Origin: Gammaproteobacteria bacterium
GTDB taxonomy: Bacteria > Pseudomonadota > Gammaproteobacteria > HTCC5015
Assembly: GCA_013817245.1 (NCBI GenBank)
Contig: JACDDA010000001.1
Location: 434,001 to 498,000 of the forward strand
Reading direction: 5' to 3'
DNA: 64,000 bases
Shown: positions 22,862 through 58,652 of the stretch, in pieces
Position numbering within the stretch: position 1 is the stretch's first letter
Layout: every line of letters begins with the position of its first letter
The notes under the pieces: model-generated
What the model was told of the DNA's origin: nothing
The model's input: only the letters and a program-made list of their open reading frames with translations
The model's database searches: none
Translations under genes and position numbers: made by a program

Positions 22862-22870
22862 AAACAAAAA

Positions 22871-22887
22871 CCCCCGCAGTGCGGGGG
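22871..22887 (-). terminator. Terminator of the first FecR/LysM gene
   Basis: Perfect CCCCCGC/GCGGGGG stem with an AGT loop; the run of A just left of it reads as a U-tract on the - strand. It lies about 20 bases beyond the stop of the - strand gene and abuts the end of rluE. Confidence 0.88.
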
Positions 22888-22908
22888 CAGAGTATTTGAC
22901 CTGTCTTC

Positions 22909-24927
22909 TCAATTACAAGCTGAATTAACACAACTAGCTTCCATAATAACCGCACCTTGAGCTGTAATATTAGGATTCGTTGAACCTTCAACTGCGGCTA
23001 AACTAAAAGTACTGGCTGCTCCTGAAATCGGTCCATTCGGTACCACGCTATTACTGCCGGGTAGAAAAACAACAGAGGCTTTGCCTGCTAGATAAGTAGT
23101 AACGCTAGTATCAGAAACATTACCTTGTAATTGTATGTTTTGACTACCGTTTATAACGCTTAATAAAGAAGTATTTGATTGAGCGCTGGCATTATAACTT
23201 GCACTACCAATATTGAAGCTGAGAACGTATTCGGTGATTTTTTGTGACGAGAAATTAACCATCATACTCGCACTACTCATTGTACCGACTCGACCGAGGT
23301 GATCCGTTGGGTTAGTGCCTTGCCCATTATAGGTAAAGCCTACGTTACTATATAGTGTACCCATCTTATTTATATCATCGACACTGGCCACTCTTTCGGT
23401 ATACATCCAATGTAAATTTGGACCTTGTGCAATTGCCAAACCATTGGCAGTAAGACTGTAACCACCCGTCCAACGTCCCCAGGTAATGCCGTAGTTTTTA
23501 TTCCTATCTAAATCATTCAACTGAGCAGTACCGGCAAAAAAACGATGATCAACCACACTACCATCATTATTTTTACCGACTTCACGTGCAGCAATAGGGA
23601 CGATCAGTTCTGTTACGCCATCACTAGCAACAAAACGTGCGACGCGTATAAAGCGGCGTTCATCGCCAGATTCTAATACACCGGTCGTAGGATGCGGTTC
23701 TACTAATGCGCCGTTTACTACTGTAGTTGCCGCATTATTTAGCGTACTACCTAAAGGCAATAAGTCGATCAAACTGATTAACATACGCGCAGTCGGCGGC
23801 GCTCTTTCTCCTAACTCTATATTTGAACCTGCATTACCGGTTTCTTCGCCTTGCTCTGGACGTGGCGCGAAACCCGGACGTTGCATTTGTTGCTCTCTAT
23901 TTAATTCTTGCGCCGCATTGCCACCTTCATCGGCGAATTGTCGTCTGTCTACTTTAGATCCGTCTTCTTTATTATCTTCTTGAACAATAGGATCTTGTTT
24001 CTCGTCTTTTTGTTTATCGTCAGGACGTTTTACATCGGGTTGTAATTCATTGCCATCGAATACCACAGGTGGCGGTACTAATAAACTTTCGGGACGTTTA
24101 TCTAAACCTGCGACATTAAAATATTCATCGTTACCAAAAGTATGCTCACCGGTTTGATTGTTAACAATGATTTCCCCGTCAACGACGCCGCCGTATAAAC
24201 CATCTTTTAAACCGCCGTCTTTTTTACAATTGTTGTCTTGGCATAAAGAGACACCGTAATGCGTTCCACGAATACCAATCGTGGCGACGGGTGTGGTTAC
24301 GCGATAATTGTTTTTATTCGTATGGCCAATTGCGCCCGTGATAGTACGAAAACCGCCTTTCGCTAATTCAAAAAAACTACTTTCAGAACCGTCTTCACGA
24401 CCCGCGTAATTGTATTGTTTAATACGAAATTCAGTATTAGGCCGCAGTGCAATTAATGCACCGTCAACAAAACGAATTTGAGTATGGGTTGAAGCTGATG
24501 TTGCAATGGTGTCGCCTTCATAAATCATGGTATTACGTTGTAAAACACGACGACCATTCGTAGTGCCATTAGCAGTAGCCATGCCTGCGCTCACCACAAC
24601 ATGCGCAATAGGTTGAGAGTTCGTTGTCTTTGGTGCTGCTTTTGCGATAGTGGCAGTCGCGGCATTATTAGCGGCTGCACCAAAATTTAACGTTGCGCCG
24701 ATTATTAATTTAGCGGCATTACCGTTTTCAAAAGCTTGAGGATTTTGCTGCACCACTTGGCGAATTTTATCTTGCGTAATCGTCTGTCCCGGCATGGCTT
24801 GTTTCATGATGACGTATAAAGTATCGCCACTTTTAATCGTCCAGCTATCCATTGCTAAGGCATTACCGCCTACCAACAACGTTAATAGAATAACCGGCAG
24901 TATCATACTGTTACGCAAAACCTTCAT
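22909..24927 (-). CDS. Exported LysM-like / FecR-domain protein with WGRW C-terminal domain (paralog 1)
   Basis: The 672-residue protein has a Sec signal peptide (MKVLRNSMILPVILLTLLV..., cut after ALA near 25), a FimV-like LysM motif WTIKSGDTLYVIMKQA...NPQAFENGN, then a FecR domain (RVLQRNTMIYEGDTI, QIRFVDGALIALRPNTEF, FFELAKGGFRTITGAIG, VTTPVATIGIRGTHYGV, about 135-245). After an acidic, low-complexity linker comes a beta-rich C-terminal domain with ITWGRWTGGY and GPNLHWMYTERVAS. The start is the ATG at 24927 with AAGGAG. It is a close paralog of the gene at 25297-27255. Function unknown; FecR domains usually sense or scaffold at the periplasmic face. Confidence 0.82.
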   Translation of the reverse strand: MKVLRNSMILPVILLTLLVGGNALAMDSWTIKSGDTLYVIMKQAMPGQTITQDKIRQVVQQNPQAFENGNAAKLIIGATLNFGAAANNAATATIAKAAPKTTNSQPIAHVVVSAGMATANGTTNGRRVLQRNTMIYEGDTIATSASTHTQIRFVDGALIALRPNTEFRIKQYNYAGREDGSESSFFELAKGGFRTITGAIGHTNKNNYRVTTPVATIGIRGTHYGVSLCQDNNCKKDGGLKDGLYGGVVDGEIIVNNQTGEHTFGNDEYFNVAGLDKRPESLLVPPPVVFDGNELQPDVKRPDDKQKDEKQDPIVQEDNKEDGSKVDRRQFADEGGNAAQELNREQQMQRPGFAPRPEQGEETGNAGSNIELGERAPPTARMLISLIDLLPLGSTLNNAATTVVNGALVEPHPTTGVLESGDERRFIRVARFVASDGVTELIVPIAAREVGKNNDGSVVDHRFFAGTAQLNDLDRNKNYGITWGRWTGGYSLTANGLAIAQGPNLHWMYTERVASVDDINKMGTLYSNVGFTYNGQGTNPTDHLGRVGTMSSASMMVNFSSQKITEYVLSFNIGSASYNASAQSNTSLLSVINGSQNIQLQGNVSDTSVTTYLAGKASVVFLPGSNSVVPNGPISGAASTFSLAAVEGSTNPNITAQGAVIMEASCVNSACN

Positions 24928-25247
24928 GATCTTCTCCTTGCCACGGTAATCATTAAAAGACATACATTCGACCAAACAAGCCGTCGTAAAATTATAGGCG
25001 TCTCCGCCACCAGCGCTTACTCAAATTATCAAAAGCCCGCTAGTAGGCAGTAAAAAGACGAGTAACTGCGCGCGTGGACTTAATCTACTTTTTTATAAGC
25101 TGGTAGTAGTACAGTACAAATAAGGCGAGAAATCTGCGAAGCCCTCAGCAAAATGTCACATTGGCTGCAACTCATTTGCACACTTTAGAGCAATATGCAG
25201 TGACTTAGCGGCCAACTAAGGTTTTTCATGAAAATGCGATTAATAAA
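24928..25247. other. Gene-free stretch between the two FecR/LysM genes
   Basis: About 320 bases hold the promoter region of the 22909-24927 gene, which must be separate because a strong terminator (25248-25270) ends the upstream transcript. No coding frame or obvious operator was seen. An inverted pair around AGTAGGCAGTAAAAAG is not convincing. Confidence 0.4.
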
Positions 25248-25270
25248 AAGCCCCCGACCTGCGGGGGCTT
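25248..25270 (-). terminator. Terminator of the TPR-barrel / FecR operon
   Basis: A 9-bp stem AAGCCCCCG/CGGGGGCTT with a five-base loop (25257-25261) is followed on the - strand by a T-rich run. It lies 26 bases after the stop of the 25297-27255 gene. Confidence 0.88.
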
Positions 25271-25296
25271 AAGTTGTGCTGCACTTTATTCAATTT

Positions 25297-27255
25297 CTAT
25301 TTTGGATTAGTAGCAGCATCGTCATATTCCATTAATACCGCACCTTGCGCGGTAACATTAGGATTAGCCTTGTCGGTGGATTGCACACTGAAAGTACTGG
25401 CTACCGCATTCACAGGCATTCCTCTGTCACCGCCATTTAATAACAAGATAGATGCTTGGCCTGCTAAAGTAGTGTCAGCACCACAATTACTGCCCCTACT
25501 ACCAGCGCAACTACCTTCCAAACCTATGTTATTGCTCATTGCTTTCGCTAACGACACAGCCTTCTCATTCACAAGATATAAATTATATTGATCCTTATCA
25601 ATCACAAAACCGAGGTCATATCCTGTTACTGCTTGTTTATTAAAATCAATCGTGACGGATGCGCTATTCATAGTGCCCACATTGCCTAAATTATCAGTAG
25701 GGTTGGTACCGCCGCCTAATTTTTGATTAGGATCATAGCTAAAAACCACTGCTCCATAATATTTGCCCATGTAAGACAGGTCGTCAGCACTCGCCATGCG
25801 TTCGCTATAGATAAAATGTAAATTAGGACCATGCGCTATTTCAACGTCATTTTCAGTTATAAAATAATTGCCTGACCAACGCCCCCAGGTTACGCCATAT
25901 TCTTTGCGACCACCTAAATCAGCTAATTTAGCCTTCCCAATTGCAGCCTTGCGTTGTACTTTGTTGTCTTTTCCGTCTACAAAATACTCGCTCATAGCAA
26001 CCGGCACTACCAAACCATCAATATCAATCACTTTGACCGATTGATATTTGGTATTGCCATCAACGTTTTCAACATGGCCATCAGAATCAACTACACCCTT
26101 TTTAGAAAGCGATAACTGAATATAACTAAAACTACCCAACGCACCTTCTGGTGCTGTGCGCGTGCCGTCCCTGATCTCACCTTGTTCTGTCGTTTCTGAA
26201 CCTACTTCTATGCTCGATTTAATGGTGGGGCGTTCAGCTTGTTGTGCTTTAACAAGAATTTCCGATTCGCCTTTACCTTCCGAGGCGTATTCTTTTTCTT
26301 TCTGTTCTTTTTCGTCTACTGAATTTTCTTTATTCTTTTCTTTGTCTACAGCTTCATCTTTCTTTTTGTTTTTTAGTTCTTCGTTTTCTGGCTGTAGTTC
26401 ATCACCATCAAACACCACGGGTGGCGGGCTTAACAAACTCGCGGGTCTTTGATCAAGTCCGGCTACTGTAAAATATTCATCATTGCTAAACGTGTGATTG
26501 CCGGTTTCATTTTCAACGACGATTTCACCATCAACGACACCGCCGTATAATCCATTGCTTAAATTTGCTTTTTTGCAGTTGTCGTCCTGACACAAGGTCA
26601 CACCGTAATGGGTGCCGCGAATACCAATGGTTGCAACCGGTGTGGTTACTCGATAATTATTTTTATTTACATGGCCAATCGCGCCGGTGATGGTACGAAA
26701 ACCACCTTTGGCTAATTCAAAAAAACTGCTTTCGGAACCGTCTTCTTGACCACTATAACTGTATTTTTTAACTTGAAATTCGGTGCTAGGTCTTAGCGCA
26801 ACTAAAGCGCCATCTACAAACCGAATTTGGGTGTGGGATGAGGCTTGCGTGGAAACGGTATCGCCTTCGTATATCAGCGTATTACGTTGCAACACACGGC
26901 GACCATTAGCACCATTAACAGCAGCATTACCTGCTGTCACTACCACGCGGCCTACTGCTTTGCCGTTATTAGTAGCGGTTGGATTTGCCGCAGTTACCGC
27001 TACTTTTGCATCTAAATTCAGTGTTGCGCCTACTATTGGTTTTGCAGGATTACCGTTTTCAAATGCTTGTGGATTTTGTTTAACAATTTCTCGCAATTTG
27101 TCTTGTGTAATGGCCGCCTGAGGCTGCGCTTGTTTTAAAATGCTATACAAAGTATCGCCGGATTTAACTGTCCATTGTGTTACTGCCCATGCATCCGTGC
27201 ACAACGTTAACACCAGCAAGAAACTTGCTGTATACATGTTACGTGTGTTCATCAT
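25297..27255 (-). CDS. Exported LysM-like / FecR-domain protein with WGRW C-terminal domain (paralog 2)
   Basis: The 652-residue paralog has the same layout as its neighbour: signal peptide (cut after AWA near 24), LysM-like WTVKSGDTLYSILKQA, FecR domain with RVLQRNTLIYEGDTV, VDGALVALRPSTEF, FFELAKGGFRTITGAIG and TTPVATIGIRGTHYGV, a charged linker of about 80 residues made mostly of Lys and Glu (about 285-350), and a C-terminal domain with VTWGRWSGNY and GPNLHFIYSERMAS. The N-terminal halves of the two are nearly identical; linkers and C-termini have diverged. It follows the TPR-barrel gene by 27 bases, so the two are co-transcribed. Confidence 0.82.
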   Translation of the reverse strand: MMNTRNMYTASFLLVLTLCTDAWAVTQWTVKSGDTLYSILKQAQPQAAITQDKLREIVKQNPQAFENGNPAKPIVGATLNLDAKVAVTAANPTATNNGKAVGRVVVTAGNAAVNGANGRRVLQRNTLIYEGDTVSTQASSHTQIRFVDGALVALRPSTEFQVKKYSYSGQEDGSESSFFELAKGGFRTITGAIGHVNKNNYRVTTPVATIGIRGTHYGVTLCQDDNCKKANLSNGLYGGVVDGEIVVENETGNHTFSNDEYFTVAGLDQRPASLLSPPPVVFDGDELQPENEELKNKKKDEAVDKEKNKENSVDEKEQKEKEYASEGKGESEILVKAQQAERPTIKSSIEVGSETTEQGEIRDGTRTAPEGALGSFSYIQLSLSKKGVVDSDGHVENVDGNTKYQSVKVIDIDGLVVPVAMSEYFVDGKDNKVQRKAAIGKAKLADLGGRKEYGVTWGRWSGNYFITENDVEIAHGPNLHFIYSERMASADDLSYMGKYYGAVVFSYDPNQKLGGGTNPTDNLGNVGTMNSASVTIDFNKQAVTGYDLGFVIDKDQYNLYLVNEKAVSLAKAMSNNIGLEGSCAGSRGSNCGADTTLAGQASILLLNGGDRGMPVNAVASTFSVQSTDKANPNVTAQGAVLMEYDDAATNPK

Positions 27256-27282
27256 TATTGCCTTTTTGTTGATATTGCTCTT

Positions 27283-28704
27283 TTAGTTAAATTGATAAGA
27301 AGCTGAAAGCACCAGCTCATCACGATCGTAATCACTTAATGCACTATTCGAAGTATTGTCGGTAAGTGAATAACTGCCATTAAACAACCAATGTTTATCC
27401 ATGCGCCATGCAACATCGGTCGCAAAACGTTGATAGGTGTCATCGCGAGTGGTGGTACTTACTGATGGGTCAGAGCAACCACCGGTTGCAGCTAAACCGT
27501 TCACGCATAAATAATTTGCGTATTCGCTATTTTGACGGCTATACGCTACGGTTAAAGCCCAACGCGAACTTAAGTTTAATTGGCTACCAACACTCATACC
27601 CCAGAAATCACGATCTACAGTAGACGATGTATCAGTTATGCCATCCTCATCATTGTCACTGCTGCTCTTGGGGGCTTCGCTACCGGTATACACCGACGCA
27701 AATAACATTTGCGGCACCCACAAACGAATAGAATGCGTGATGTCAGCGCCGATAGTAGTGATATTGCTATTTCTCACTGCTTGATCGGGATAATCCAACA
27801 TTGAATATTGTAAATTCGCGCCAACAAAGGTGGTGGTTTTTAATTCGTAACGCCATTCTGCATTCAAGCCGGTTGAGTCACGATAAGCATTGCCATCTAA
27901 ATCAAACGTTTGATATTGAACACCCAAACCATAACGTTGTTTGCCTAATAAATATTTAACTTTACCCAACACCTCTAACGTCAAACTGTCATAAATATCT
28001 AAGTCGGCGTATTGACGCATATCAACTCGCGCACCCGCGGCTACTTTCCAGCGCGCGGTTAACGGAACATCGATGTCATAAAAACCATTGATCTTAGTAT
28101 ATTGATCATCTTGTAAAGCATAGTCTTCATCTAAACTCGCTTGTACACTTGATTGCACAGCCGTATCACCACCGGTGCCAAAAAAATCGGCAACGCTAAT
28201 CGAGCTGGGCGCACTGTTCACATTACTATCTAAACCATAAGCCAAACCAATGCCGCCGTGTTGCGTGGTTTGATAACGACCGGCTTGTTGTTGAATCGCT
28301 TCTAAATAACGATTCACCGTAATGCGAACCGATTGAGGCGGATTTTGTTTAAGAATAGTGTCGAACTCTTGTCTAGCGCGTTCAAACTCTTCCAATAAAA
28401 AATAACCACGCGCCACTTCTAAACGCGCTGCATGAAAATCGGGTTTATAGATCAGCACACGCTCTAGCGCAAAAACACCTTCGCTAGCTTTACCTATATC
28501 AATCGCGGCCATGCCGTAGTAATAATCGAATGAAGGATCGCCTTCTTTAGTACCTAGGTATTGCCGACCGTATTGATACACTTCTTTGGATTTGCCCAAA
28601 GTATGCAAGCGCACCATTTGATTGATATCAAACGCTGCTTCAGCGGCCTGTGCATTCACTGACAATAAGCTGATAAAAAAAGTAATTGCTAATAAGCGGA
28701 CCAT
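27283..28704 (-). CDS. Outer-membrane protein: TPR N-terminus plus C-terminal beta-barrel
   Basis: A signal peptide (cut near AQA, residue 20) is followed by TPR-like helices (about 25-145; ALERVLIYKPDFHAARLEVARGYFLLEEFERARQEFDTIL) and then a barrel of about 310 residues: alternating strands such as GIGLAYGLDSNVNSAP, ARVDMRQYADLDIYDSL, YGLGVQYQTFDLDGN and a C-terminal DELVLSASYQFN ending in Phe-Asn. This plan resembles Slam/DUF560 translocators that move surface proteins across the outer membrane. It is co-transcribed with the FecR/LysM gene downstream, which may be its cargo or partner. The family match is inferred from layout and the DSNVN motif, not from a search. Confidence 0.72.
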   Translation of the reverse strand: MVRLLAITFFISLLSVNAQAAEAAFDINQMVRLHTLGKSKEVYQYGRQYLGTKEGDPSFDYYYGMAAIDIGKASEGVFALERVLIYKPDFHAARLEVARGYFLLEEFERARQEFDTILKQNPPQSVRITVNRYLEAIQQQAGRYQTTQHGGIGLAYGLDSNVNSAPSSISVADFFGTGGDTAVQSSVQASLDEDYALQDDQYTKINGFYDIDVPLTARWKVAAGARVDMRQYADLDIYDSLTLEVLGKVKYLLGKQRYGLGVQYQTFDLDGNAYRDSTGLNAEWRYELKTTTFVGANLQYSMLDYPDQAVRNSNITTIGADITHSIRLWVPQMLFASVYTGSEAPKSSSDNDEDGITDTSSTVDRDFWGMSVGSQLNLSSRWALTVAYSRQNSEYANYLCVNGLAATGGCSDPSVSTTTRDDTYQRFATDVAWRMDKHWLFNGSYSLTDNTSNSALSDYDRDELVLSASYQFN

Positions 28705-41583: not shown

Positions 41584-44500
41584 TCAGGCAGATGATGTTT
41601 GCGACAGGGTAAGTTCTACATGATGAATCTGCTGGTCATCCACCAGTGGGATGTATGCTGATTCCAGCGCCACACCGTCCAGTGTTAAACCGGTGCCACT
41701 CAGCTCAGTGTCAGCAGAAATCTGGGTCACGACGATTTGATATTGAGTGCTGCCAAAACGATATGTGATCGAGTACGTGGTCCAATTTGCCGGCATGCGA
41801 GGGATGAGCCGCAGCTGATTTGCCTCTCGCGTCAATCCCAATAGCGATTCCAAAATCAAGCGGTAGAGCCAGCCCGCTGAACCCGTATACCAAGTCCAGC
41901 CTCCACGACCCATGTGGGGTGCAATCGCGTAGATATCCGCAGCCACAACATAGGGTTCAACCTTGTAAGTCGATACTTCCTGTGTACTGCGGCTGTGATT
42001 GTGAGGATTGATCAGATCCATCAGCTCCCAAGCGCGGCGGTTATCACCCATCTCAGCAAAAGCCATAGCAGCCCAGATCGCGGCGTGGGTGTATTGGCCA
42101 CCATTTTCACGCACACCGGGAACGTAACCTTTGATGTATCCGGGGTTCATCGCGGAACTGTCGAATGGCGGCGCTAGCAACTTGATCAGTTTGTCGTCTC
42201 TGCGTACCAGATGATGATCCAGTGAATCCATTGCCTGTCGTGAGCGTTCGTTGTCCCCTGCGCCGGACAGCACCGACCAGCTTTGAGCAATAGAATCAAT
42301 GCTGCATTCAGGATTCGTTGCTGAACCCAGTGGCGTGCCATCGTCAAACCAAGCTCGGAGATACCAAGCTCCATCCCAGCCGTGTTGTGCCAAATTTTCA
42401 CGCAGCTTTTCCGCTTCAGAAATACAGCGTTCGGCAAACACCGGATCGGCGTGCAGATGGGCGATGTCGGCAAAACGTTGCAATACCTGGTACAGAAAAA
42501 ATCCCAGCCATACGCTCTCGCCCACGCCTTTGATACCGACCTGACTCATGCCATCGTTCCAGTCACCAGAACCCATTAATGGCAAGCCTTTTTCCCCGAA
42601 ACGCAGCCCATGCAGAATAGACACCACACAATGTTGATAAAGGCTGACACTCTCATGACTGGTAGTGGGCAGATCGTAATAAGATTCCTCAGCTTCCTCT
42701 AAAGCGCGACCTTCAATGAACGGAATCATTTCGTTCAACACGTCGGTGTCACCCGTGCCTAGGACATAGCGGCAAGTGGCTAATGGCAGCCACAGGTAAT
42801 CGTCTGAGCAGCGGGTACGCACGCCACGTCCGACAGGTGGATGCCACCAGTGCTGTACGTCTCCCTGTGGATATTGGCGCGCAGCACACTTTAGAAGCTG
42901 TCGGCGCAGCAGATCCGGTTGAGTGTGTAGCAATGCCATTGCGTCCTGTAACTGGTCTCGGAATCCGAAAGCGCCCCCGGATTGATAGAAACCACTACGA
43001 GCCCAGAGACGACAAGCTAAAGTCTGATAAACCAACCAGCCATTGGCGAGTACGTTCAAGGACGCATCGGGCGTGTTAATTTGCACGGTACCCAAAGTGT
43101 GTGACCAGAACTGCTGTACTTTCCTCAGTGCTGCGTGAGCCGATCCTGGTTGACGCAGCTGTTGTGCCAGGACGCGAGCCGATTCCACATCATGCCCAGC
43201 GCCTAATCGAAAAATGATTTTCCGTTCTTGTCCGTCGGCGAGTTCGAAGGGTACCTGAATGGCGCCACAAGGATCGAGTGCTGCTCCAACACGGCCGGAC
43301 AACTGTGCCCGCGTCATAGCATCGGGGTGATGCAAGGTGCCGTTGCGGCCGATAAATTCAGTGCGATCACCGGTCAGCGTGCGAGCCAAGTCGTCTACAT
43401 CGAAGAATGCCACTCGGCCTCCAAACTCGGGGTTGTACGCATTGCGTGCGAACAATGCGCCGCTGAGATCAATTTCAGTAACAACATGCATGGCCGTTTT
43501 CTGCCGCAATTCACCCAAAATCCATTCCACATAGCCGGTAGCTGACAAATGTCGCATGCGACCAGAATTGTTGCGCACCTTCAATACTGAGAATTTGACT
43601 GCTGCTTCCAAATCCACGTACACGCAAAGCTCGGATTGAATGCCCTCTTCAGAGTGTTCGAAAATGCTGTAACCAAAACCGTGACGGGTTACATAGGGCG
43701 TGGCACCTTGGCAGGGCATGGGCGAAGGCGACCAGAAATGACCACTGTCCTCGTCACGAAGGTAAAACGCTTCGCCACCAGAGGCGCCTACGCAATCTCC
43801 TCCGCTCCAAGGTGTCAGCCTGAATTCATGGGCGTTCTCACTCCAGGTGTAGGCCAGACCACTTTCGGTCACTACGCTACCGAATTGATCGTTGGCGAGT
43901 ACATTCACCCAAGGCAAGGGGGTCTGGTTGGTCAATGTGGTCGTGATGATGTATTCGCGACCATCGCTACTGAATCCCCCCAGGCCGTTATCTAGCTGTA
44001 GTTCCTCGCCGGAGTTTTCCAAAGTTGCTGGGGTTGCAGGCGGGAAATTATGGGTGATGGCCAGTGGTGCAACGGATTTTTTAACCAGCAGGCGCCGGTT
44101 AAGTTGTTCCGACAGAGTACCTCGGGTATCGGAAATGATAATGCGGGCAACTGCCTGTAATAGGATTCGATCCTCACTGGAAATCTGTTCGGCGTAGTGC
44201 ACGAAGATTCCACCAGGGCGGCCAATGGAATGGGCTTCTGTGCCAGTGGCAATGAGTCCCATGATTTGATCTTGCAGATGTTGCCGGTAGCTCATGTGAT
44301 CTTGATTCCAGATCACTAAATCCACATCAAGACCTTTCAAACGCCAATAGGCATGGCATTGAATCAGTTGCCGCGCTATTTCAATATGATCGCTATTGGC
44401 AATTTTCAATAAGACGATGGGCAGGTCGCCGGAAATGGCATAACCCCACAAGCTGGATTGACCGCGTCGATTCTGCATCAGCACCGCGGTGTCCGCGCGC

Positions 44501-47500
44501 AAGCCAGCATTGGCATACAGTATAGAACTAGCGAGGCGACGATAAAGATTGGCATCGGCTTCGCTGGCATTAATCTGTCGTAAGGTCACACCGCTGTGGG
44601 TCAAAGCCAGACCCAGTCCCCGGTTTGCCAAATGTCGATCCTGGTATTTTGCAACCAGAGCGAGACATGCTTCTCGGCTGTCAGCCATGCCGGTCACAAT
44701 GTCTAGGGTGACCATTTGATCCGCTTCCAAAGTGACCGGACAGCGAATAGCGACAATTGGATCAAGCACAGAACCTGCACTGCCGGATAGTTCGCCGAGT
44801 TCGGTCATGGCCAGGGGTGACACCAAAGTACGGCCACGGCCAATAAACTCTAGGCGGTCAGTCGTGCTGGAAAGTACGCCGATACTCCCGTTGTTATCAT
44901 TATCATTACGATGGGTGGCCAGTAGATGAAACATCCACGGCGCTTTTTCTTCAACAGAACGGGGTCGTCGGGTACACAGTATTGCGTGACCACCCGGCAG
45001 GATTTCTGTTTGTACGAACAAGTTGCTGAACGACGGCTGCGTCATATCTGCCGCAGGCAGAGCCATGACCACTTCAGCATAAGTAGTAAAGTCGAGTGTG
45101 CGATAACGATGGGAATGATTGGTGATGCGTACTCTTCGCAGTTCGATGTCGTCTTCCGGCGATACCACGATGTCGGAATAGGTTTCGATATCATGATCAC
45201 GGCGACAGTACTCAGCGCGTCCTTCAGAAAATAGGACACTGTAAGTCTGAGCTCGTTTGAGCGTGGGCTGATGCGTGGCAGACCAGATGTCGCCGTCGGC
45301 GATATCGCGCAGATAAATGAACGTGCCCCAGTTGTCGCAAGTGCTGTCCTCACGCCAACGGGTTACTGCCAGATCTTTCCAGCGACTATAACCACCACCG
45401 GCATTAGTGAGCATGACGTGGTAACGCCCATTGGACAACAGCTGCACTTCTGGCGTGGGCGTATCTGCGCCGATAGGCGTATGTGCAGAGGTTTTCCCTT
45501 CCTCGAACATGGCACTGCCTTCAGCGTGTTCATCAATGTGCGGTTGAAATATTGAAATCTTGGGTGTCCGTTCCTGCAGTAGCAAGAGCGCGGATTGGAG
45601 CAGCGGGTCGGATTCGAAACGCCGTTGCATGGGCTGGCCCAGTAAGCGAAAAGCCAGTGCCAGCAGGCTCATGCCCTGATGATGCGCCATAAACGAACGC
45701 ACTATTGCACTGGTCTTGCCACGAATGAGTCGCGATGGCGTGTAGTCAATGGCTTCATACATACCATAGCGCCCTTCCAGCCCGCTTGCCGCTAACCTTT
45801 GCAAATTTGTACACGCAGCTTCCGGAGCTACCATCAGTGCTAGCACCGAGGCATAAGGTGCGATCACCAAATCCTCTGCGAGTCCTCGCTTGAGTCCCAA
45901 ACCAGGCACACCGAAAGCGTGGTACTGGTAATTGAGGCTGGCGTCGACCGTGTTGTAGCCGGATTCCGACACCCCCCAAGGCACACCACGTTGTTGACCG
46001 TAGGCAATTTGCCGAGCCACAGCAACGCGACAAGTCTGGTACAACAAGGTGCCCGCATAAGTGGGCATTACCAGCATTGGCATGAGGTATTCAAACATCG
46101 AGCCGCTCCAAGACACTAGCACGGGCTCTCTACTGCCTGCGGTGGTTAGAAGTCGGCTCAGTGCAAACCAGTTTTCTTGCGGAAGCTGGCCTTGTGCGAT
46201 CGCGATAAAACTACAAAGACGCGCTTCCGATGCCAATAGATCATAGAAGCTCGTATCACGCTGGTTTGTATCGACGTTGTAGCCGATAGCGAGCAAATGC
46301 TGGGTACGGTCATAAAGGAATTCATATTTCATCGTGGCAAATCCGAAAGCCCGTTGTGCTAACCGTTCGCTGAGAATGATGCGTTGCTTGGCGTATTCGG
46401 CACCCGTAATAGTCAGATCACGCAGAGCTATTAACCAACGATTTTCGTCAGTTGACATTGCTGTTTGCAAACGGGTATCTATGGCGGCTAATTGTTCAAC
46501 ACTACGTGTTGCCAGTTGACGCAAGGTTGGAATATCAGTGTTATTCACAAACTGTATTAGGCTAGTAGGGGCAACTGGCAGGCTTAGCCAAGGTGCAAGA
46601 GAACGTATTTCTATAATCGCTGCGTGACATTGCTGTTGCAAATCTTCGACCCAGCTATAGGCATCGCTATTAATAATGTCAGTGTGAGGCTCTGTCTGGA
46701 ACTGAGAGAACAGTTCATTTGCGCAGCGAGACAATGGTGTTAGTAGCTGTACAGTTTTTATAAGATTCGCCGGGGCTTGTATGCAGGCCGCATTCAACAA
46801 AGCGTGCATTTGCTGGATAGTGGCCTGAATTGCTGTTGTTTTAGTATCGTCGAGCAACGTCGTATTAATGGATAAGTCTACAAAGGCATCTGTAAAAACA
46901 TCCAATGTGGTTATAAGTCCCTCAAATAGCTTCGGGTGAAGGATTTTTTGATCCGGCACATCCAACAGTGCTACGCGCAGGGTCAACAAATGTCCGGCGA
47001 GGTTGCCGCTGTCCACGGATGAAATATAGCGAGGTTTTAATGGTTGCAGTGAACGAGTGTCGTACCAGTTGTAGAAATGACCTTTGTGTCGCTCCAACTG
47101 ATCTAATGTATCAAAGCAATTCGCGGTGCGTTGCAGCAGCGTGCCTGCGGGAATAAAACCAAAATCGCAGGCGGATACATTGGCTAACAAGGATAAGCCG
47201 ATGTTGGTGGGCGATGTGCGATGTGCAATCACCGGATTTGGGTATTCCTGAAAGTTGTCCGGTATCAGCCAGTTGTCATCGATACAGGAAAAGTGTTCGA
47301 AGTAAGCCCAGGATTTGCGGGCAAGTCGGTTTAAAAATCTGGTCTGATCTGAATTAAGTGTTGGTTCACGATCGGGTTTTGGCAAGCTCAACCACCAGGC
47401 AATGCCGGGGGAGGCAAACCAGAGCATCAGCAAGATTATAATGAGCGGGTTTGGCTGTATGAATGCTAGACAAATCGCAGCGACACTCGCAATGACTGGC

Positions 47501-50388
47501 GCTACCCACATGGTGCAATAGACGCCTAGCAGGCCAGTTCCGCAGCGGCTGCGTTGACCATTAAAAGTCGTGAACCATTCCAGCAGGCCGTGATGGGTGA
47601 AGAGCATGCGCCCAGCGCTGCGCAGAATCGCCGCAAGATTGAATACGGCTTCGTGGGGCAGACAAACTATACGGAATCCGGCTTGGAGGAAACCATGCCT
47701 AGTACTGCGCAGCACCGCGCGAATATGGTGCCGCAGTAACATTTCCCGAGGTTTGTGCCAGATCGCTACCAAACCGGTTAGTAAAGGCGGTAGTAGTAAA
47801 ACCGACAATACAGCGAAGGTCCACAGAATGGGATTGGGTGCTTCCCCCCAACCTATTAGTAATAGAAGCAATAGCGCCATGGGTTCCAGGCTGCGACGCA
47901 AATTGTCAAAAATTTTCCAGCGTGACAGGATCGATAGCGGGTTTCTTTCGCTGCGATTCAGGATTGTTGGCGCCCGCGGCAACATCCAATGGGCAATCTG
48001 CCAATCACCACGAATCCATCGTTCGCGTCTGCGCATGTCAGTGTCATAGCGAGTCGGGTGTTCCTCGTAAAGATGCACGTCACTCAGTAGTCCTGATCGA
48101 GCAAAGCATCCTTCCAATAAATCATGACTGAGGATGCGGTTCTCCGGCAGACGATTCTTTAGTACCTGCTCGAACACATCGACATCATAGATGCCCTTGC
48201 CGATAAACGAACCTTCACCAAACAGATCTTGATACACATCCGATACAGAACGTGTGTAAGGATCAATACCTGGCTCTTCACCGTAAAGTTGCGCATAACG
48301 TGAAGGGGTTTGCCTCGACAAGTTGGCAGCCATGCGGGGTTGCAAAATGCCGTAACCACCACAGACACGTTGTTTTTTTTCATCATAACGAGGCTGGTTG
48401 AGCGGGTGTGACATGGTGGCGGCAAACTGCCGTGCTGAGTCGCGTGGCAATAGCGTATCGGTATCCAGAGTAATGACGTATTTCACTTGTGAGAGAACCG
48501 TAATATTGCCAACAATGAGTTCGAAACGATCCAAGTTTTCGCCGCGCAAAAGCGCATTCAGATCTCCCAGCTTGCCGCGTTTGCGTTCGTAACCCATCCA
48601 TATTTTTTCCTGAGCATTCCAGGAGCGAGGGCGATGTAATAGGTAGAAACAATCACCGTCACGCTGAGGCAATTGCGTCGGATATTTTGCGTTGAGATGC
48701 TCAATGCCTAAACGTGCCTGTCGCAGTAAATGCTCATCATTAATTTGCGTTTGTTTCGGGGCATCGTGGAAATCAGTTAGCAGCCCGAAATGCAGATACT
48801 CGTCGCGATTACCCAAAAACCGCACTTCCATAGCCTCTAACAGATCTTCGATGTCTTGTGTGCTACTTAACAAAGTGGGAACCACCACTAATGTTCGTAT
48901 TGAAGGAGGCAGTCCTTTTGAATAATCCATGCGCGGCAAGCGCTGTGGTTCTACCAGCAATGTAGCGATCCAATTAACGAGTGCCAATGCCAGTTGACTG
49001 CCTGCCAGTACTGCCAGGCAGCCTAAAAACAAGCTAGGCCAGTGACTGATATCGGTAGGCTGGGCCAGTCTCAGCAGTATTGCGGCGAACAGGGAAGTGA
49101 GGAGCAGAATAGAACCAAGATACAAAACCAGTGGTGAGCGAGAAGTGATAGCGCGCAATCGTGCAGATAAGGATCGCCGTGCCATCACAGCGGTTTCCAG
49201 CTGCAGCAGCCCATGATCAATTAGATAAAAACCGACGTGAGTAGCGGGGTTGCGGCGGGTGCCATCATTAGGGTTGGTCGCTTGTAGAGCTAGTTGGATA
49301 GCAATGCGTGCGATATCAATTTCAGAATGTTTGCTGCGTTTAGCTAGCCTGTCGATCACCCGACGATAATGATCCCGAGTTGCGAAATCCATTGCACCGT
49401 AAACACCGTCGATGTCTTGCTGCAATATTTTTTCAACACCACTGTTTGCTTCGACAAAATCGCGCCAATCCATCGCGGTCAGCCAACGCAGACTGCCAAT
49501 GGTGTTGCTGATGGATATTTGATCTGCCGCTTGATGCTGGTTTTCGGCTTGCACCAGCTGATTGATAGTGAGACTGGATTCTGCCAGCCGCTTTTCGATC
49601 CAGCTGAGAGGCAGAGCCAAAGCAGGACCATGACCTTGCAACTGCCGTGTCAGTTCAGCTACAAATGCGCTGGTCATCGGCGGTTCGGAACGTGCCATGT
49701 CAGCAACTACCAGAATCAGGCTTTTAGGGTCACGTTCCGCGATTTCCAGCATCTGATTTGACCACTCCTGCGCTAGATTGCGATGCTGGCGAGAGGTGGT
49801 GATGAGGGCGCTCACGCGGCGCAGATTTTCAATCAGGGTCAGTCGCAGCATGATGGGAATGGCCCACAACTCCCCCAGCGTGAGAGGCGTAATAGTTTGA
49901 TATGCCGCTACGAAAGATCCCAGAGTTTCAGCATCCACGCGGCCGTCACCATGGGAAATGGTATTAAGTGCAATGTCATAGACGCGCGGCAAATCATGAG
50001 ATTTGCCCTGCGCCAGATGAGGCAGTTCCCGACTGTAACCTTTTGGCAAATGGAGGCGCGCCGTGCGAATCTGTTCTTCGATGAGATAAAAATTATCAAG
50101 CAACCATTCACCAGACGGCGCGATGCGATCCTTGGCTTTCACCGCAACTGTCAGCAGATTGCAGGTCGAGATCAGTACCTGTTCATTGGCATCCAGTCGT
50201 TTCAATAGAAGATCTTGTGTACTGGTCGGGCTCAGTACGTGAGTACTTGCCAGAACTTTGGCATGCTGGGCCATTTGGTCAGCATTAAATAGTTCTTCCC
50301 GTAACGGTCTCTCATTCTCCAGTGTAGATGACTGGAACCACGTAGCGGTGTTACGCAAAAAGTGGGAGAAAGGAATTTCGAAATTCAT
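41584..50388 (-). CDS. ndvB: Cyclic beta-glucan synthase (NdvB/ChvB type)
   Basis: At 2934 residues this is the largest gene of the window. Layout: a helical N-terminal region, membrane helices (about 405-475), a GT84 glycosyltransferase domain with the metal-binding DTDTLLPRDSARQFAAT near 641, RRERWIRGDWQ near 770, further membrane helices (about 820-1000), two GH94-like/carbohydrate-binding beta-sandwich repeats and a C-terminal GH94 phosphorylase-like domain with FGFRDQLQDAMAL near 2469 and GSGDWNDGMSQVG near 2606. Such enzymes build and cyclise periplasmic beta-1,2-glucan, which is used for osmotic adaptation and host interaction. The ATG overlaps the stop of the ATPase gamma remnant (ATGA). 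Confidence 0.93.
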   Translation of the reverse strand: MNFEIPFSHFLRNTATWFQSSTLENERPLREELFNADQMAQHAKVLASTHVLSPTSTQDLLLKRLDANEQVLISTCNLLTVAVKAKDRIAPSGEWLLDNFYLIEEQIRTARLHLPKGYSRELPHLAQGKSHDLPRVYDIALNTISHGDGRVDAETLGSFVAAYQTITPLTLGELWAIPIMLRLTLIENLRRVSALITTSRQHRNLAQEWSNQMLEIAERDPKSLILVVADMARSEPPMTSAFVAELTRQLQGHGPALALPLSWIEKRLAESSLTINQLVQAENQHQAADQISISNTIGSLRWLTAMDWRDFVEANSGVEKILQQDIDGVYGAMDFATRDHYRRVIDRLAKRSKHSEIDIARIAIQLALQATNPNDGTRRNPATHVGFYLIDHGLLQLETAVMARRSLSARLRAITSRSPLVLYLGSILLLTSLFAAILLRLAQPTDISHWPSLFLGCLAVLAGSQLALALVNWIATLLVEPQRLPRMDYSKGLPPSIRTLVVVPTLLSSTQDIEDLLEAMEVRFLGNRDEYLHFGLLTDFHDAPKQTQINDEHLLRQARLGIEHLNAKYPTQLPQRDGDCFYLLHRPRSWNAQEKIWMGYERKRGKLGDLNALLRGENLDRFELIVGNITVLSQVKYVITLDTDTLLPRDSARQFAATMSHPLNQPRYDEKKQRVCGGYGILQPRMAANLSRQTPSRYAQLYGEEPGIDPYTRSVSDVYQDLFGEGSFIGKGIYDVDVFEQVLKNRLPENRILSHDLLEGCFARSGLLSDVHLYEEHPTRYDTDMRRRERWIRGDWQIAHWMLPRAPTILNRSERNPLSILSRWKIFDNLRRSLEPMALLLLLLIGWGEAPNPILWTFAVLSVLLLPPLLTGLVAIWHKPREMLLRHHIRAVLRSTRHGFLQAGFRIVCLPHEAVFNLAAILRSAGRMLFTHHGLLEWFTTFNGQRSRCGTGLLGVYCTMWVAPVIASVAAICLAFIQPNPLIIILLMLWFASPGIAWWLSLPKPDREPTLNSDQTRFLNRLARKSWAYFEHFSCIDDNWLIPDNFQEYPNPVIAHRTSPTNIGLSLLANVSACDFGFIPAGTLLQRTANCFDTLDQLERHKGHFYNWYDTRSLQPLKPRYISSVDSGNLAGHLLTLRVALLDVPDQKILHPKLFEGLITTLDVFTDAFVDLSINTTLLDDTKTTAIQATIQQMHALLNAACIQAPANLIKTVQLLTPLSRCANELFSQFQTEPHTDIINSDAYSWVEDLQQQCHAAIIEIRSLAPWLSLPVAPTSLIQFVNNTDIPTLRQLATRSVEQLAAIDTRLQTAMSTDENRWLIALRDLTITGAEYAKQRIILSERLAQRAFGFATMKYEFLYDRTQHLLAIGYNVDTNQRDTSFYDLLASEARLCSFIAIAQGQLPQENWFALSRLLTTAGSREPVLVSWSGSMFEYLMPMLVMPTYAGTLLYQTCRVAVARQIAYGQQRGVPWGVSESGYNTVDASLNYQYHAFGVPGLGLKRGLAEDLVIAPYASVLALMVAPEAACTNLQRLAASGLEGRYGMYEAIDYTPSRLIRGKTSAIVRSFMAHHQGMSLLALAFRLLGQPMQRRFESDPLLQSALLLLQERTPKISIFQPHIDEHAEGSAMFEEGKTSAHTPIGADTPTPEVQLLSNGRYHVMLTNAGGGYSRWKDLAVTRWREDSTCDNWGTFIYLRDIADGDIWSATHQPTLKRAQTYSVLFSEGRAEYCRRDHDIETYSDIVVSPEDDIELRRVRITNHSHRYRTLDFTTYAEVVMALPAADMTQPSFSNLFVQTEILPGGHAILCTRRPRSVEEKAPWMFHLLATHRNDNDNNGSIGVLSSTTDRLEFIGRGRTLVSPLAMTELGELSGSAGSVLDPIVAIRCPVTLEADQMVTLDIVTGMADSREACLALVAKYQDRHLANRGLGLALTHSGVTLRQINASEADANLYRRLASSILYANAGLRADTAVLMQNRRGQSSLWGYAISGDLPIVLLKIANSDHIEIARQLIQCHAYWRLKGLDVDLVIWNQDHMSYRQHLQDQIMGLIATGTEAHSIGRPGGIFVHYAEQISSEDRILLQAVARIIISDTRGTLSEQLNRRLLVKKSVAPLAITHNFPPATPATLENSGEELQLDNGLGGFSSDGREYIITTTLTNQTPLPWVNVLANDQFGSVVTESGLAYTWSENAHEFRLTPWSGGDCVGASGGEAFYLRDEDSGHFWSPSPMPCQGATPYVTRHGFGYSIFEHSEEGIQSELCVYVDLEAAVKFSVLKVRNNSGRMRHLSATGYVEWILGELRQKTAMHVVTEIDLSGALFARNAYNPEFGGRVAFFDVDDLARTLTGDRTEFIGRNGTLHHPDAMTRAQLSGRVGAALDPCGAIQVPFELADGQERKIIFRLGAGHDVESARVLAQQLRQPGSAHAALRKVQQFWSHTLGTVQINTPDASLNVLANGWLVYQTLACRLWARSGFYQSGGAFGFRDQLQDAMALLHTQPDLLRRQLLKCAARQYPQGDVQHWWHPPVGRGVRTRCSDDYLWLPLATCRYVLGTGDTDVLNEMIPFIEGRALEEAEESYYDLPTTSHESVSLYQHCVVSILHGLRFGEKGLPLMGSGDWNDGMSQVGIKGVGESVWLGFFLYQVLQRFADIAHLHADPVFAERCISEAEKLRENLAQHGWDGAWYLRAWFDDGTPLGSATNPECSIDSIAQSWSVLSGAGDNERSRQAMDSLDHHLVRRDDKLIKLLAPPFDSSAMNPGYIKGYVPGVRENGGQYTHAAIWAAMAFAEMGDNRRAWELMDLINPHNHSRSTQEVSTYKVEPYVVAADIYAIAPHMGRGGWTWYTGSAGWLYRLILESLLGLTREANQLRLIPRMPANWTTYSITYRFGSTQYQIVVTQISADTELSGTGLTLDGVALESAYIPLVDDQQIHHVELTLSQTSSA

Positions 50389-50909: not shown

Positions 50910-51130
50910 ATAATTCCTTGAGGCTTTTTGCAGGCGCCATTACTAATATGATGATAACTAGCTCGCCTGAGTATTAAGCATAACGCCAACCACCGAGCAG
51001 GTATGTTCGGTAAAAGACAGACCTATGCCAATCGCCACGTTTACTCTGATCAGCAAGCGTTGACAGTGACCATTAATGCGCATTGCCAAGATTATCGTTG
51101 AAAATATTCAGAGCGAGTGCAGTTAGCAAT
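50910..51130. other. Intergenic region between the atpD remnant and the HAD gene
   Basis: About 220 bases of divergent promoter region. It includes the residual promoter side of the former N-ATPase operon and the promoter of the HAD-tal genes. A 32-codon frame (51003-51101) is open but has no homolog that I recognise. Confidence 0.4.
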
Positions 51131-51838
51131 GTGAACCCATCACGGGAAATTGTTTTTTTACTAGACGTTGATAACACGCTGTTGGATAACGATTCTGTGG
51201 TGGCGGATCTCAATGGTTTTTTGTTGCGCGAATTTGGCCGAGAAACTCACGATCAATACTGGCGCGTTTTTGAAACATTGCGCAGCGAACTTGGCTACGC
51301 CGATTATTTGGGCGCACTGCAACGTTATCGACTCGAACACCTCGATGATTCGCGTTTGCTCATGATGTCTTCGTTTCTTTTCGATTATCCATTTGCAGAT
51401 CGCTTATATCCCGGTGCGTTGGCCGTGATTAAATATTTGCACACATTCGGTCCTACCGTAATTCTGTCAGATGGCGATGTGGTGTTTCAGCCGCGCAAAA
51501 TTCAGCGTTCAGGATTATGGGATGCAGTTGACGGACGCGTACTGATTTACATTCATAAAGAGCAGATGCTCGATGCTGTCGCGCGGCGCTATCCCGCTAA
51601 GCGCTATGTGATGGTGGACGACAAGCTGCGCATTTTGACGGCGATGAAAACGTTTTGGCGCGATCGTCTAACAACAGTTTTCCCGCGGCAGGGTCATTAC
51701 GCGCACGATCCCAAACAGACCCTCGCTTATCCATCTGCTGATTTGACGATTGAATGCATCGGTGATTTGGTGAATTACGATTTTTCCATCGGACTCAGCG
51801 CAATCGAAACAGGTTCTGTGGCATCGGAGACACTATGA
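51131..51838 (+). CDS. HAD-superfamily hydrolase
   Basis: The 235-residue protein has the HAD motifs: I, FLLDVDNTLLDND with nucleophile Asp; II, VILSDGDVVF; III, a lysine in IHKEQMLDAV; IV, MVDDKLRILTAMK with the acidic pair. The cap region is helical. Substrate unknown, but the genomic context (transaldolase, pgm, phosphoketolase) suggests a phosphosugar phosphatase. I place the start at the GTG at 51131; the frame runs further back to 51083, but those residues are not family-like. The stop overlaps the ATG of tal (ATGA). Confidence 0.85.
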   Translation: MNPSREIVFLLDVDNTLLDNDSVVADLNGFLLREFGRETHDQYWRVFETLRSELGYADYLGALQRYRLEHLDDSRLLMMSSFLFDYPFADRLYPGALAVIKYLHTFGPTVILSDGDVVFQPRKIQRSGLWDAVDGRVLIYIHKEQMLDAVARRYPAKRYVMVDDKLRILTAMKTFWRDRLTTVFPRQGHYAHDPKQTLAYPSADLTIECIGDLVNYDFSIGLSAIETGSVASETL

Positions 51839-52911
51839 ATAATTCCACTCAGCAATTACACAAATTAGGTCAGAGTTTGTGGCTCGACAATATCACTCGT
51901 GAACTACTCACTAGCGGTACTCTGCAGCATTACGTTGATGACCTCGCAGTGACGGGGTTGACGTCGAATCCCACGATTTTTGATAAAGCAATTAAAAGCG
52001 GTAATTTTTACGACGAAGAAATTCAGCGTAAAGCAGCAGCGGGTGTATCCGGCGAAGAGTTGTTTTTTATATTGGCGTTAGAAGACTTAACCAAGGCCGC
52101 CGATTTGTTGCGGCCGATTCACGACGCGACCGATGGCGCAGATGGCTGGGTATCGCTCGAAGTATCGCCGCTGCTTGCCGATGATACGGCCGGTACTATC
52201 GCGGCGGCGGTGGATCTGCATAAACGTGCACAACGGCCGAATCTTTTTATAAAAATTCCGGGTACGCCTGCCGGCTTGTTGGCCATCGAAGAAACTATTT
52301 TTGCGGGCGTGGCGGTGAATGTAACGTTATTGTTTTCACGCGAACAATACATCGCTGCTGCTGAAGCGTATCTGCGCGGTATTGAACGACGCATCGCCGC
52401 CAGGCTCGATCCGAAAGTTGGCTCGGTGGCCTCATTATTTATCAGTCGCTGGGACGTTGCGGTGAACGACGCGGTTCCGCAGTTATTGCGCAATCGTCTC
52501 GGTATCGCCATCGCCAAGCGCACCTACAAAGCGTATTGCGATTTGCTGGATTCGCCGCGCTGGCGGAAATTAAGCGCCGCCGGCGCTCAACCGCAACGCC
52601 TGTTGTGGGCCAGCACCGGCGTTAAAGATCCGCAAATTTCTGCTAGCTATTACATTTCGGCGCTCGCGGCACCGAATACCATCAACACCATCCCTGAGAA
52701 AACGTTACTTGCGTTTGCACAGAGTGGTGAGTTATTCGGTGTTATGCCGATTGATGGTGGTGATGCTGAAATTGTGTTGTCGGAATTTGCGAAAGCTGGC
52801 GTGAATATCGATAGGCTCGCAGCGCAGTTGCAACAAGAAGGAGCGGCTTCGTTCAGTAAATCCTGGGACGACCTGCTCACGGTGATTGCATCAAAAAGTA
52901 TTAAGCCGTGA
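51835..52911 (+). CDS. tal: Transaldolase
   Basis: Transaldolase swaps three-carbon units between sugar phosphates of the non-oxidative pentose pathway. The 358-residue sequence has SLWLDNITRELLTSGTLQHYVDDLAVTGLTSNPTIFDKAI in two stretches (14-53), the Schiff-base lysine in LFIKIPGTPAGLLAIEETI near residue 140, NVTLLFSREQY and FISRWDVAVND. It belongs to the longer bacterial group (about 360-370 residues). ATG overlaps the HAD stop. The decayed pgi remnant follows directly. Confidence 0.95.
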   Translation: MNNSTQQLHKLGQSLWLDNITRELLTSGTLQHYVDDLAVTGLTSNPTIFDKAIKSGNFYDEEIQRKAAAGVSGEELFFILALEDLTKAADLLRPIHDATDGADGWVSLEVSPLLADDTAGTIAAAVDLHKRAQRPNLFIKIPGTPAGLLAIEETIFAGVAVNVTLLFSREQYIAAAEAYLRGIERRIAARLDPKVGSVASLFISRWDVAVNDAVPQLLRNRLGIAIAKRTYKAYCDLLDSPRWRKLSAAGAQPQRLLWASTGVKDPQISASYYISALAAPNTINTIPEKTLLAFAQSGELFGVMPIDGGDAEIVLSEFAKAGVNIDRLAAQLQQEGAASFSKSWDDLLTVIASKSIKP

Positions 52912-52940
52912 ACGAAGCGATTGCAACACACTCGTCATAG

Positions 52941-53137
52941 CTGACCGAACGAACGACATGGAAACCACTGCAAGCGTATTATCAAACGTTGAGTACGAAA
53001 ACTATTCACTGACGATTCGCAGCGCGACGAACGCTTTGCTGCACAAGCCTGCGGTATTTATTTCGACGATTCGAAAAATCGTATTACCGCTGAAACGATT
53101 TAGCTGGCTAAGAGAATCAGTATTATGCAAATAGGAA
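52941..53137 (+). pseudogene. Decayed N-terminal piece of glucose-6-phosphate isomerase (pgi)
   Basis: Between tal and the P-type ATPase, reading frames combine to a Pgi N-terminus. One frame gives LTERTTWKPLQAYYQTLS (from 52941), close to the Pgi start L-x-x-x-x-x-W-x-x-L-x-x-H-Y-x. A neighbouring frame then gives VRKLFTDDSQRDERFAAQA and CGIYFDDSKNRITAETI before a TAG (53101-53103), matching the conserved Pgi block D-L-F-x-x-D-P-x-R-x-x-x-F...D-Y-S-K-N-R-x-T-x-E-T. A third piece (LAKESVL by frame change) may follow. At least one frameshift and a stop interrupt it, and the remaining 480 residues are gone. Confidence 0.75.
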
Positions 53138-53147
53138 TGCAGCGAAC

Positions 53148-55484: not shown

Positions 55485-55486
55485 AT

Positions 55487-56827
55487 ATGTCTATCGAGCC
55501 TAATGTGAAAGTTTCTATTGAGTCCGATCTAGAAGTTCAGGGGAAATCAACTCCGTGCAAATCTTCTATGTGCGGAGCAGCAGGAAATTCATCTGCTGAA
55601 AAATTAAATCTTGGTTGCTTTTGCAAAACACTTAATCGTGAACAACTCGATTCAATATTAAAAGCCGATGATTTAACTCAGGCCGTATTGCAAACGCAGC
55701 CACAACTTTTTTCCAACACCACGGTTTTTATTTCGCCAACTCAACTAGCTCAAATACAAGAAGTTGTACACGCCATTGAACGTATCGTTCAATTAACAGA
55801 GTTTCAAGAAATGGCATTAGTTGCTGCGGATGATGCGGCAATATTAAATGCGGGGAATTCTGGCGTATTTATGGGCTATGATTTTCATTTATCCGACACT
55901 GGTCCTCAGATCATTGAAATCAACACCAATGCGGGTGGCGCATTTTTAAATGCAGCCCTCTTAAGTGCGCAAACTGAATGCTGTCGCGAAGCAGAATCGT
56001 TATTGCCGCTAGCAAAAGTCGCTATTGATGATCAATTTATCGCAATGTTTTTAAACGAATGGCGTTATCAAAATATTGATTTACCTTTGGTGCGCGTTGC
56101 CATTGTCGATGAAAACCCTCAACAACAATTTCTTTATCCCGAATTTAGAATGGCAAAACGCTTATTTGAGCGTCATGGTATAGAGGCCGTCATTGTTGAT
56201 CCACAACAACTCATCTTTGAAAACAATATCCTCAGTGTGAACGGAGATAAAATTGATTTGGTCTACAATCGACTAACTGATTTTTCGTTGCGTCACAAAA
56301 ATTCATCTGCGTTACGCGCAGCTTATTTGAATGGCTCGGTAGTCGTTACTCCTAATCCGCATCATCACACACTCTATGCAAACAAACGCAACCTTGCTTT
56401 GCTAAGCAATGCAGACACATTAAAGAAATTAGGTGTTAGCGAAGCAGATATTAATATCGTCACAACAGCTGTTCCAATAACACGCATGGTAAGTAGCCTG
56501 AATGCCGAACAATTATGGGCTGAGCGAAAACACCTATTTTTTAAACCGACAACGGGTTTTGGTAGTCGCGCAACCTATCGCGGCGACAAACTTACAAAAC
56601 GCGTATGGGACGAAATAATAAGCGGCGAGTATGTGGCGCAACGCGTGGTGCTGCCCAGTGAGCGTGGTGTGTTTGTTGATGGACAAGAGACAGCATTAAA
56701 AATGGATATTCGTGCGTATGTTTATGAAGGTGAAATCCAATTGCTCGCCGCACGTCTTTATCAAGGACAAACAACTAATTTTAGAACGAATGGTGGTGGA
56801 TTTGCGCCAGTGTTTATTGCGAATTAA
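55487..56827 (+). CDS. ATP-grasp-like protein with Cys-rich N-terminus (unknown)
   Basis: The 446-residue protein starts 2 bases after the copper-ATPase stop and is translated with it. Residues 20-50 carry C-x-x-x-M-C and G-C-F-C motifs that could bind metal. The body resembles the circularly permuted ATP-grasp/glutathionylspermidine-synthetase-like group: VFMGYDFHLSDTGPQIIEINTNAGGAFLNAAL near 125-155, VRVAIVDENPQQQFLYPEF, LVYNRLTDFSLR, LFFKPTTGFGSRATYRGDKL near 348-367 and ALKMDIRAYVYEGEIQLLAARLYQGQTTNFRTNGGGFAPV (in pieces) near 404-442. Peptide-ligase chemistry is inferred; the substrate is not known. Confidence 0.6.
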   Translation: MSIEPNVKVSIESDLEVQGKSTPCKSSMCGAAGNSSAEKLNLGCFCKTLNREQLDSILKADDLTQAVLQTQPQLFSNTTVFISPTQLAQIQEVVHAIERIVQLTEFQEMALVAADDAAILNAGNSGVFMGYDFHLSDTGPQIIEINTNAGGAFLNAALLSAQTECCREAESLLPLAKVAIDDQFIAMFLNEWRYQNIDLPLVRVAIVDENPQQQFLYPEFRMAKRLFERHGIEAVIVDPQQLIFENNILSVNGDKIDLVYNRLTDFSLRHKNSSALRAAYLNGSVVVTPNPHHHTLYANKRNLALLSNADTLKKLGVSEADINIVTTAVPITRMVSSLNAEQLWAERKHLFFKPTTGFGSRATYRGDKLTKRVWDEIISGEYVAQRVVLPSERGVFVDGQETALKMDIRAYVYEGEIQLLAARLYQGQTTNFRTNGGGFAPVFIAN

Positions 56828-56924
56828 TACGATCAATTTTCCCTATCTAGACGACCAAGCAATATAAGTGAAGTTGACACAATCAACATGCGTTCAAGTA
56901 AACAGCGCGCATTGGAGTAACACA

Positions 56925-58625: not shown

Positions 58626-58652
58626 GAACTCACTGTGAAGTTGGAAAATTTA

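Follow-up and report, generated by a model that had tools for sequence, protein, structure and literature searches.

The question raised by this locus is what an outer-membrane protein (OMP) with a TPR domain and a barrel does beside two exported proteins that combine a FecR domain with a C-terminal domain containing a WGRW motif. The three genes lie in a window of 64,000 nucleotides, the whole stretch of DNA analysed here, from a gammaproteobacterial genome. The answer to which their sequences and predicted structures point is that the locus probably encodes a type 11 (Slam-like) secretion pair with a FecR-type cargo that seems to be unlipidated. The OMP would be the translocator and the two LysM-FecR-WGRW proteins its cargo, and one translocator would here serve two cargoes.

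Organization of the locus

An earlier note, made by reading the window alone, had described three genes, an OMP gene in one unit with that of an exported protein, followed by a paralogue with its own terminator. The description holds, and all three genes are on the minus strand (Table 1): the gap between the OMP gene and the downstream gene of predicted cargo A is 27 bp, and a strong, terminator-like hairpin follows both cargo A (25270-25248) and the paralogous cargo B (22888-22870). An AAGGAG precedes the ATG at 24927 of cargo B, most likely its start, rather than the TTG at 24975 implied by the longest open reading frame. Promoter-like sites at the locus were fewer than in shuffled sequence and were not used as evidence. 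FecR exceeds its Pfam cut-off in both cargoes, while the LysM of cargo A is below it (15.8 vs 20.9 bits) yet visible in the sequence; both N-termini are hydrophobic and, by eye and by motif scan, without a good lipobox.

Table 1. Features of the locus, in positions of the window
Feature	Position	Strand	Evidence or remark
OMP, T11SS/Slam-like outer-membrane protein (predicted), 473 aa	27283..28704	minus	SlipAM 25.8 bits; AlphaFold2 pLDDT 90.8, 14 strands
OMP signal peptide	28645-28704	minus	
OMP periplasmic TPR domain	28282-28626	minus	TPR_19 match
OMP predicted 14-stranded barrel	27289-28266	minus	AlphaFold2
Predicted cargo A, 652 aa (signal peptide, LysM-like, FecR, charged linker, handle + WGRW barrel)	25297..27255	minus	
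Cargo A, LysM-like segment	27010..27177	minus	LysM 15.8 bits (sub-threshold), FimV_core match
Cargo A, FecR region	26440..26955	minus	PF04773 E 2e-11, 44.6 bits
Cargo A, charged low-complexity linker	26143..26439	minus	46% K/R/E/D over aa 286-372
Cargo A, handle + WGRW barrel	25300..26142	minus	AlphaFold2 pLDDT 83.6; best PDB fold matches TbpB, HpuA
Cargo A, WGRW motif	25876-25887	minus	
Terminator-like hairpin 3' of cargo A	25248..25270	minus	9 pairs, 7 G-C, T-rich tail
Predicted cargo B, paralogue of A, 672 aa	22909..24927	minus	FecR 42.3 bits; 54% identical to A
Cargo B, LysM	24673-24849	minus	
Cargo B, FecR	24088-24609	minus	
Cargo B, linker	23773-24087	minus	
Cargo B, handle + barrel	22912-23772	minus	WGRW at 23470-23481
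Terminator-like hairpin 3' of cargo B	22870..22888	minus	8 pairs, 7 G-C

Elsewhere in the window, a cyclic beta-glucan synthase-like protein of 2934 aa (glycosyltransferase, glycoamylase-like, GH94) is encoded at 41584-50388 on the minus strand, in a genome of 2.27 Mb. On the plus strand, a carbon-metabolism run (51083-63562) comprises HAD hydrolase, transaldolase, phosphoglucomutase, acetate kinase and phosphoketolase, and also holds a YHS/heavy-metal P-type ATPase and a DUF2254 membrane protein.

The OMP as a probable Slam-like translocator

The likeness of the barrel to Slam/DUF560 translocators, suspected from its layout, is borne out by profiles and by structure prediction. The OMP passes SlipAM only just, with 25.8 bits over a cut-off of 22, the match covering positions 5-288 of the 288 in the profile (Pfam); its TPR_19 match (22.4 bits) falls below the Pfam cut-off of 25. 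Across the 72 members of its family, SlipAM matches 47 (best 2.4e-14) and TPR_Slam 13, the window's OMP not being among the latter. The AlphaFold2 model, built with 71 relatives (pLDDT 90.8), has helices at residues 27-141 and 14 strands from 147 to 472, and TPR plus a 14-stranded barrel is the layout given for T11SS/Slam (PMC8406197, PMC5449769). The PDB fold search with the OMP singled out no translocator: BcsC, CymA and OmpG are the best matches and PelB also appears, so that the fold alone leaves the function unsettled. Overall, homology gives good support for placing the OMP, as an outer-membrane channel, in the Slam / type 11 secretion family.

With T11SS/Slam (DUF560, SlipAM, PF04575) the OMP shares a signal peptide, an N-terminal TPR part of about 140 aa, the 14-stranded barrel, a SlipAM match over the cut-off and an adjoining gene for an exported protein with a predicted 8-strand barrel. 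It differs in its weak SlipAM scores, in its place on a tree branch separate (97/98) from the classical OMPs fetched, and in its partner, which carries FecR and apparently no lipid anchor; nor does a TonB receptor lie beside it.

The WGRW end as a probable cargo barrel of the TbpB/HpuA type

The idea that the beta-rich WGRW domain could be a substrate of the Slam kind gains from fold matches, profile matches and bridging proteins, each single score being modest. AlphaFold2, applied to 281 residues of cargo A with 53 relatives, gave a pLDDT of 83.6. Against 350,542 PDB chains, the nine best matches of the WGRW end were TbpB (8) and HpuA (1), all of them Slam cargo, with a best E of 4.6e-4 and a probability of 1.00, at query-normalised TM-scores of only 0.27-0.32; the TM-scores to TbpB are likewise low (0.27-0.36). 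Among 54 relatives of this end, TbpB_B_D leads the Pfam families (3 members, best 0.0053) and slam_lipo those of NCBIfam (4 members, best E 2.2e-4); a PDB search by sequence put NHBA/GNA2132 in the first three places (E 0.15). A direct hhalign comparison of the WGRW profile with an alignment of seven TbpB-barrel sequences gave no significant match.

Intermediate proteins close the gap between the WGRW and TbpB barrels. The L239, L241 and L248 proteins score with the WGRW profile and also, over its cut-off, with TbpB_B_D, and the L241 gene is immediately downstream of the gene of a strong Slam (SlipAM 313.9 bits, TPR_Slam 106.2). Moreover, in L245, from the same phylum and another class, FecR (51.7 bits) is fused to TbpB_B_D (30.3 vs 26), both over their Pfam cut-offs, and the fusion adjoins an OMP over the SlipAM and TPR_Slam cut-offs. 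The WGRW end is predicted to be a handle plus a small 8-strand barrel of the TbpB/HpuA cargo type. Cargo of the TbpB/HpuA/NHBA/haemophilin type likewise has a C-terminal handle and small barrel, a separate N-terminal part and an OMP-linked gene; here, the protein is probably unlipidated, it is the N-terminus that is conserved, made up of FecR and in some cases also LysM, and up to seven barrels stand in tandem, against the two to three handle-barrel copies given in PMC12282271.

Conserved and variable parts of the predicted cargo

Cargoes A and B are 68% identical in LysM and 79% in the FecR region, which makes their N-terminal halves similar and not, as the earlier note had it, almost identical; the divergence that it saw in the linkers and the C-terminal WGRW domains stands, at 28% identity for the linker, 26% for the handle and 46% for the barrel. 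Its picture of a conserved docking part with variable cargo fits in that the barrel end varies and the FecR end, in some cases encoded by a gene of its own, is conserved, docking being a proposal only; LysM does not fit as a general part of it, being optional and present in a subset of relatives only.

In Rubrivivax-type genomes FecR and TPR are on one gene and a WGRW-type barrel is on the next, recognised by profile in L145, L149 and L151 and by its 44% identity to L145 in L147, and in these split genes the barrel stays beside the OMP. This separation, together with the variable barrel end, marks FecR as the conserved, separable part. Published type 11 cargo is the reverse, as its N-terminus is the variable effector (PMC12282271). 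Barrels are repeated in 16 of the proteins seen, up to seven times in proteins of 2058-2310 aa from Oceanospirillum and Marinobacterium; in these genera, L097, L101, L102 and L146 carry five to seven tandem WGRW barrels (1805-2332 aa).

FecR was also encountered apart from the barrel. In Neptuniibacter (L106, L112, L116, L118, L122, L131, L135), a further gene that encodes FecR alone immediately precedes the OMP gene, and at another place in the window's genome (L017:5117-5833) a FecR-only exported protein of 238 aa directly follows a subtilisin-like protein of 1035 aa.

Co-occurrence and phylogeny

The genes keep company across genomes. Neither of the outcomes that the earlier note named as refuting it, a barrel unlike translocators and genes that do not co-occur elsewhere, was thus observed. 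With the WGRW end alone as query, the domain was found in 24 of 369 gammaproteobacterial genomes, and in 23 of the 25 regions fetched around the matches the OMP gene is directly upstream of the FecR gene on the same strand, the other two being uninformative (one at a contig end, one with both genes below threshold). With the OMP alone as query, 80 loci were found, nearly all in Gamma- and Betaproteobacteria, and the FecR protein is the next gene in 62 of the 65 with full downstream context; these two counts are not independent, since the two sets share genomes. The WGRW profile also scores in 55 of the 62, and beyond these L121, L139 and L150 have a divergent WGRW-type end by sequence. L149 is probably a further case of FecR as the next gene, its gene lying in a reading frame that the count did not cover, and L095 and L104 have an OMP without a FecR or barrel neighbour. 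The pairing of OMP and FecR is far beyond chance and recurs across two proteobacterial classes.

An enlarged WGRW profile found the domain in 37 of the 369 evenly drawn gammaproteobacterial genomes and in only 9 of the 399 genomes of a phylum-wide sample; of the same 369, 34 have a SlipAM match of any strength and 9 are matched by the standard TbpB-barrel model. The SlipAM matches in these 369 genomes are of two kinds: FecR is beside the OMP in all 18 weaker matches (L177-L194) and in none of the seven strong ones (L170-L176). In a tree of 61 OMPs, 50 FecR-partnered OMPs form one branch (97/98) and the classical type 11 OMPs, L245 included, another (100/99), with L194 and L197 outside both; L095 is labelled FecR in this tree, though without a FecR neighbour. 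The record of the L095 OMP is labelled as an Acidobacteriota MAG, its closest OMP is gammaproteobacterial, and it is probably a contamination. A first contig scan with cargo A alone as query and a tblastn search of the WGRW end against plasmids gave no match. Proximity to lgt/thyA was rejected as a general feature, being found among the relatives only in L015.

Proposed mechanism and alternative readings

In the proposed secretion pathway, the cargo would cross the inner membrane by Sec, as its signal peptide suggests, and would then be kept from folding in the periplasm, probably by Skp; the window's genome has a Skp-like gene, and TbpB is Skp-dependent (PMC9090332). By homology to TbpB/HpuA-type cargo, the OMP would then recognise the C-terminal handle and the 8-strand barrel, which would fold outside. 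The conserved FecR, with LysM if present, may act on the periplasmic side, most likely by docking to the TPR-barrel or by anchoring, and the charged linker may span the pore, both speculatively. A tethered cargo, with barrel or barrels outside, FecR/LysM as a periplasmic anchor at the OMP or peptidoglycan and the linker in the pore, is a tentative and rather unlikely form of this pathway. The same secretion pair could, in a variant that does not exclude the pathway above, release or display the whole cargo outside, FecR included, in the manner of haemophilins, with FecR/LysM binding an outside ligand; this has a little less than an even chance. Known soluble T11SS cargo is released entirely (PMC12282271, PMC8406197), and FecR-type proteins of Leptospira are named surface adhesins in NCBIfam, but the conserved FecR end and variable barrel end are the reverse of classical cargo, and a peptidoglycan-binding LysM has no obvious ligand outside. 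The Leptospira proteins LipL45/Lsa33 resemble the cargo in an exported FecR domain (NCBIfam partial matches) and differ in that the scores are far below the family cut-offs and the matches stop short of the WGRW end. A LapA retention module was also considered: in 24 of 38 members its profile aligns with part of the FecR region, and in cargo A it reaches 13.2 bits against an NCBIfam cut-off of 50. The likeness is generic: FecR-only proteins score as well or better with this profile, and the module was therefore set aside as a specific claim.

Two readings do without secretion of the FecR protein, and both are improbable. That the OMP exports a polysaccharide in the manner of BcsC/PgaA, and the FecR-WGRW proteins are envelope proteins binding polymer or peptidoglycan, would agree with BcsC as its best PDB fold match, with the appearance of PelB, with weak EpsL and VexE similarity and with FecR and LysM as cell-wall-type domains; it is nevertheless very unlikely, as the OMP has 14 predicted strands against 16 in PgaA (PMC8406197), no polysaccharide synthase is among the genes adjoining the locus, and the partner has a barrel of the Slam-cargo type while the SlipAM match spans the whole profile. 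Equally slight is the chance that the FecR protein, instead of being cargo, serves the OMP as a sensor or signalling partner in the periplasm. The name of FecR domains comes from transmembrane signalling, LysM would put the protein on periplasmic peptidoglycan, and a LysM-FecR protein occurs in a two-component biofilm operon of Burkholderia (PMC5192318). That BiofilmReg protein, compared by description only, is likewise exported with LysM and FecR, but it stands beside a two-component system, and LysM and FecR are the domains listed for it (PMC5192318). At the present locus, as the earlier note says, there is no sigma factor or FecA: on the same contig the nearest Sigma70_r4_2 is about 400 kb and the nearest STN about 72 kb away, and a FecR anti-sigma regulator was rejected because no ECF sigma factor or STN-domain receptor is adjacent. 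The barrel of Slam-cargo type, of which relatives have as many as seven copies, and the ability of FecR to move to a separate gene while the barrel remains at the locus also speak against a sensor. More generally, the OMP and FecR may belong to one pathway in which nothing is secreted, and this is counted against the secretion pair, which remains the preferred reading.

Significance

In the literature searched, no paper pairs FecR with DUF560 or T11SS; the main texts of PMC12282271 and PMC8406197 mention neither FecR nor LysM, and FecR is likewise absent from that of PMC5449769. This absence holds for the searched literature only. For most clusters of type 11 OMPs no cargo is known (PMC8406197, PMC12282271). 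The FecR-WGRW proteins are likely candidates for the cargo of a branch of type 11 OMPs widespread in environmental Gamma- and Betaproteobacteria, and their pairing with the OMP would account for a set of FecR-domain proteins outside sigma-factor signalling. The OMP-FecR loci are small, testable gene pairs, and if the tethered arrangement were true, they would show how a surface protein can be kept in place with no lipid.
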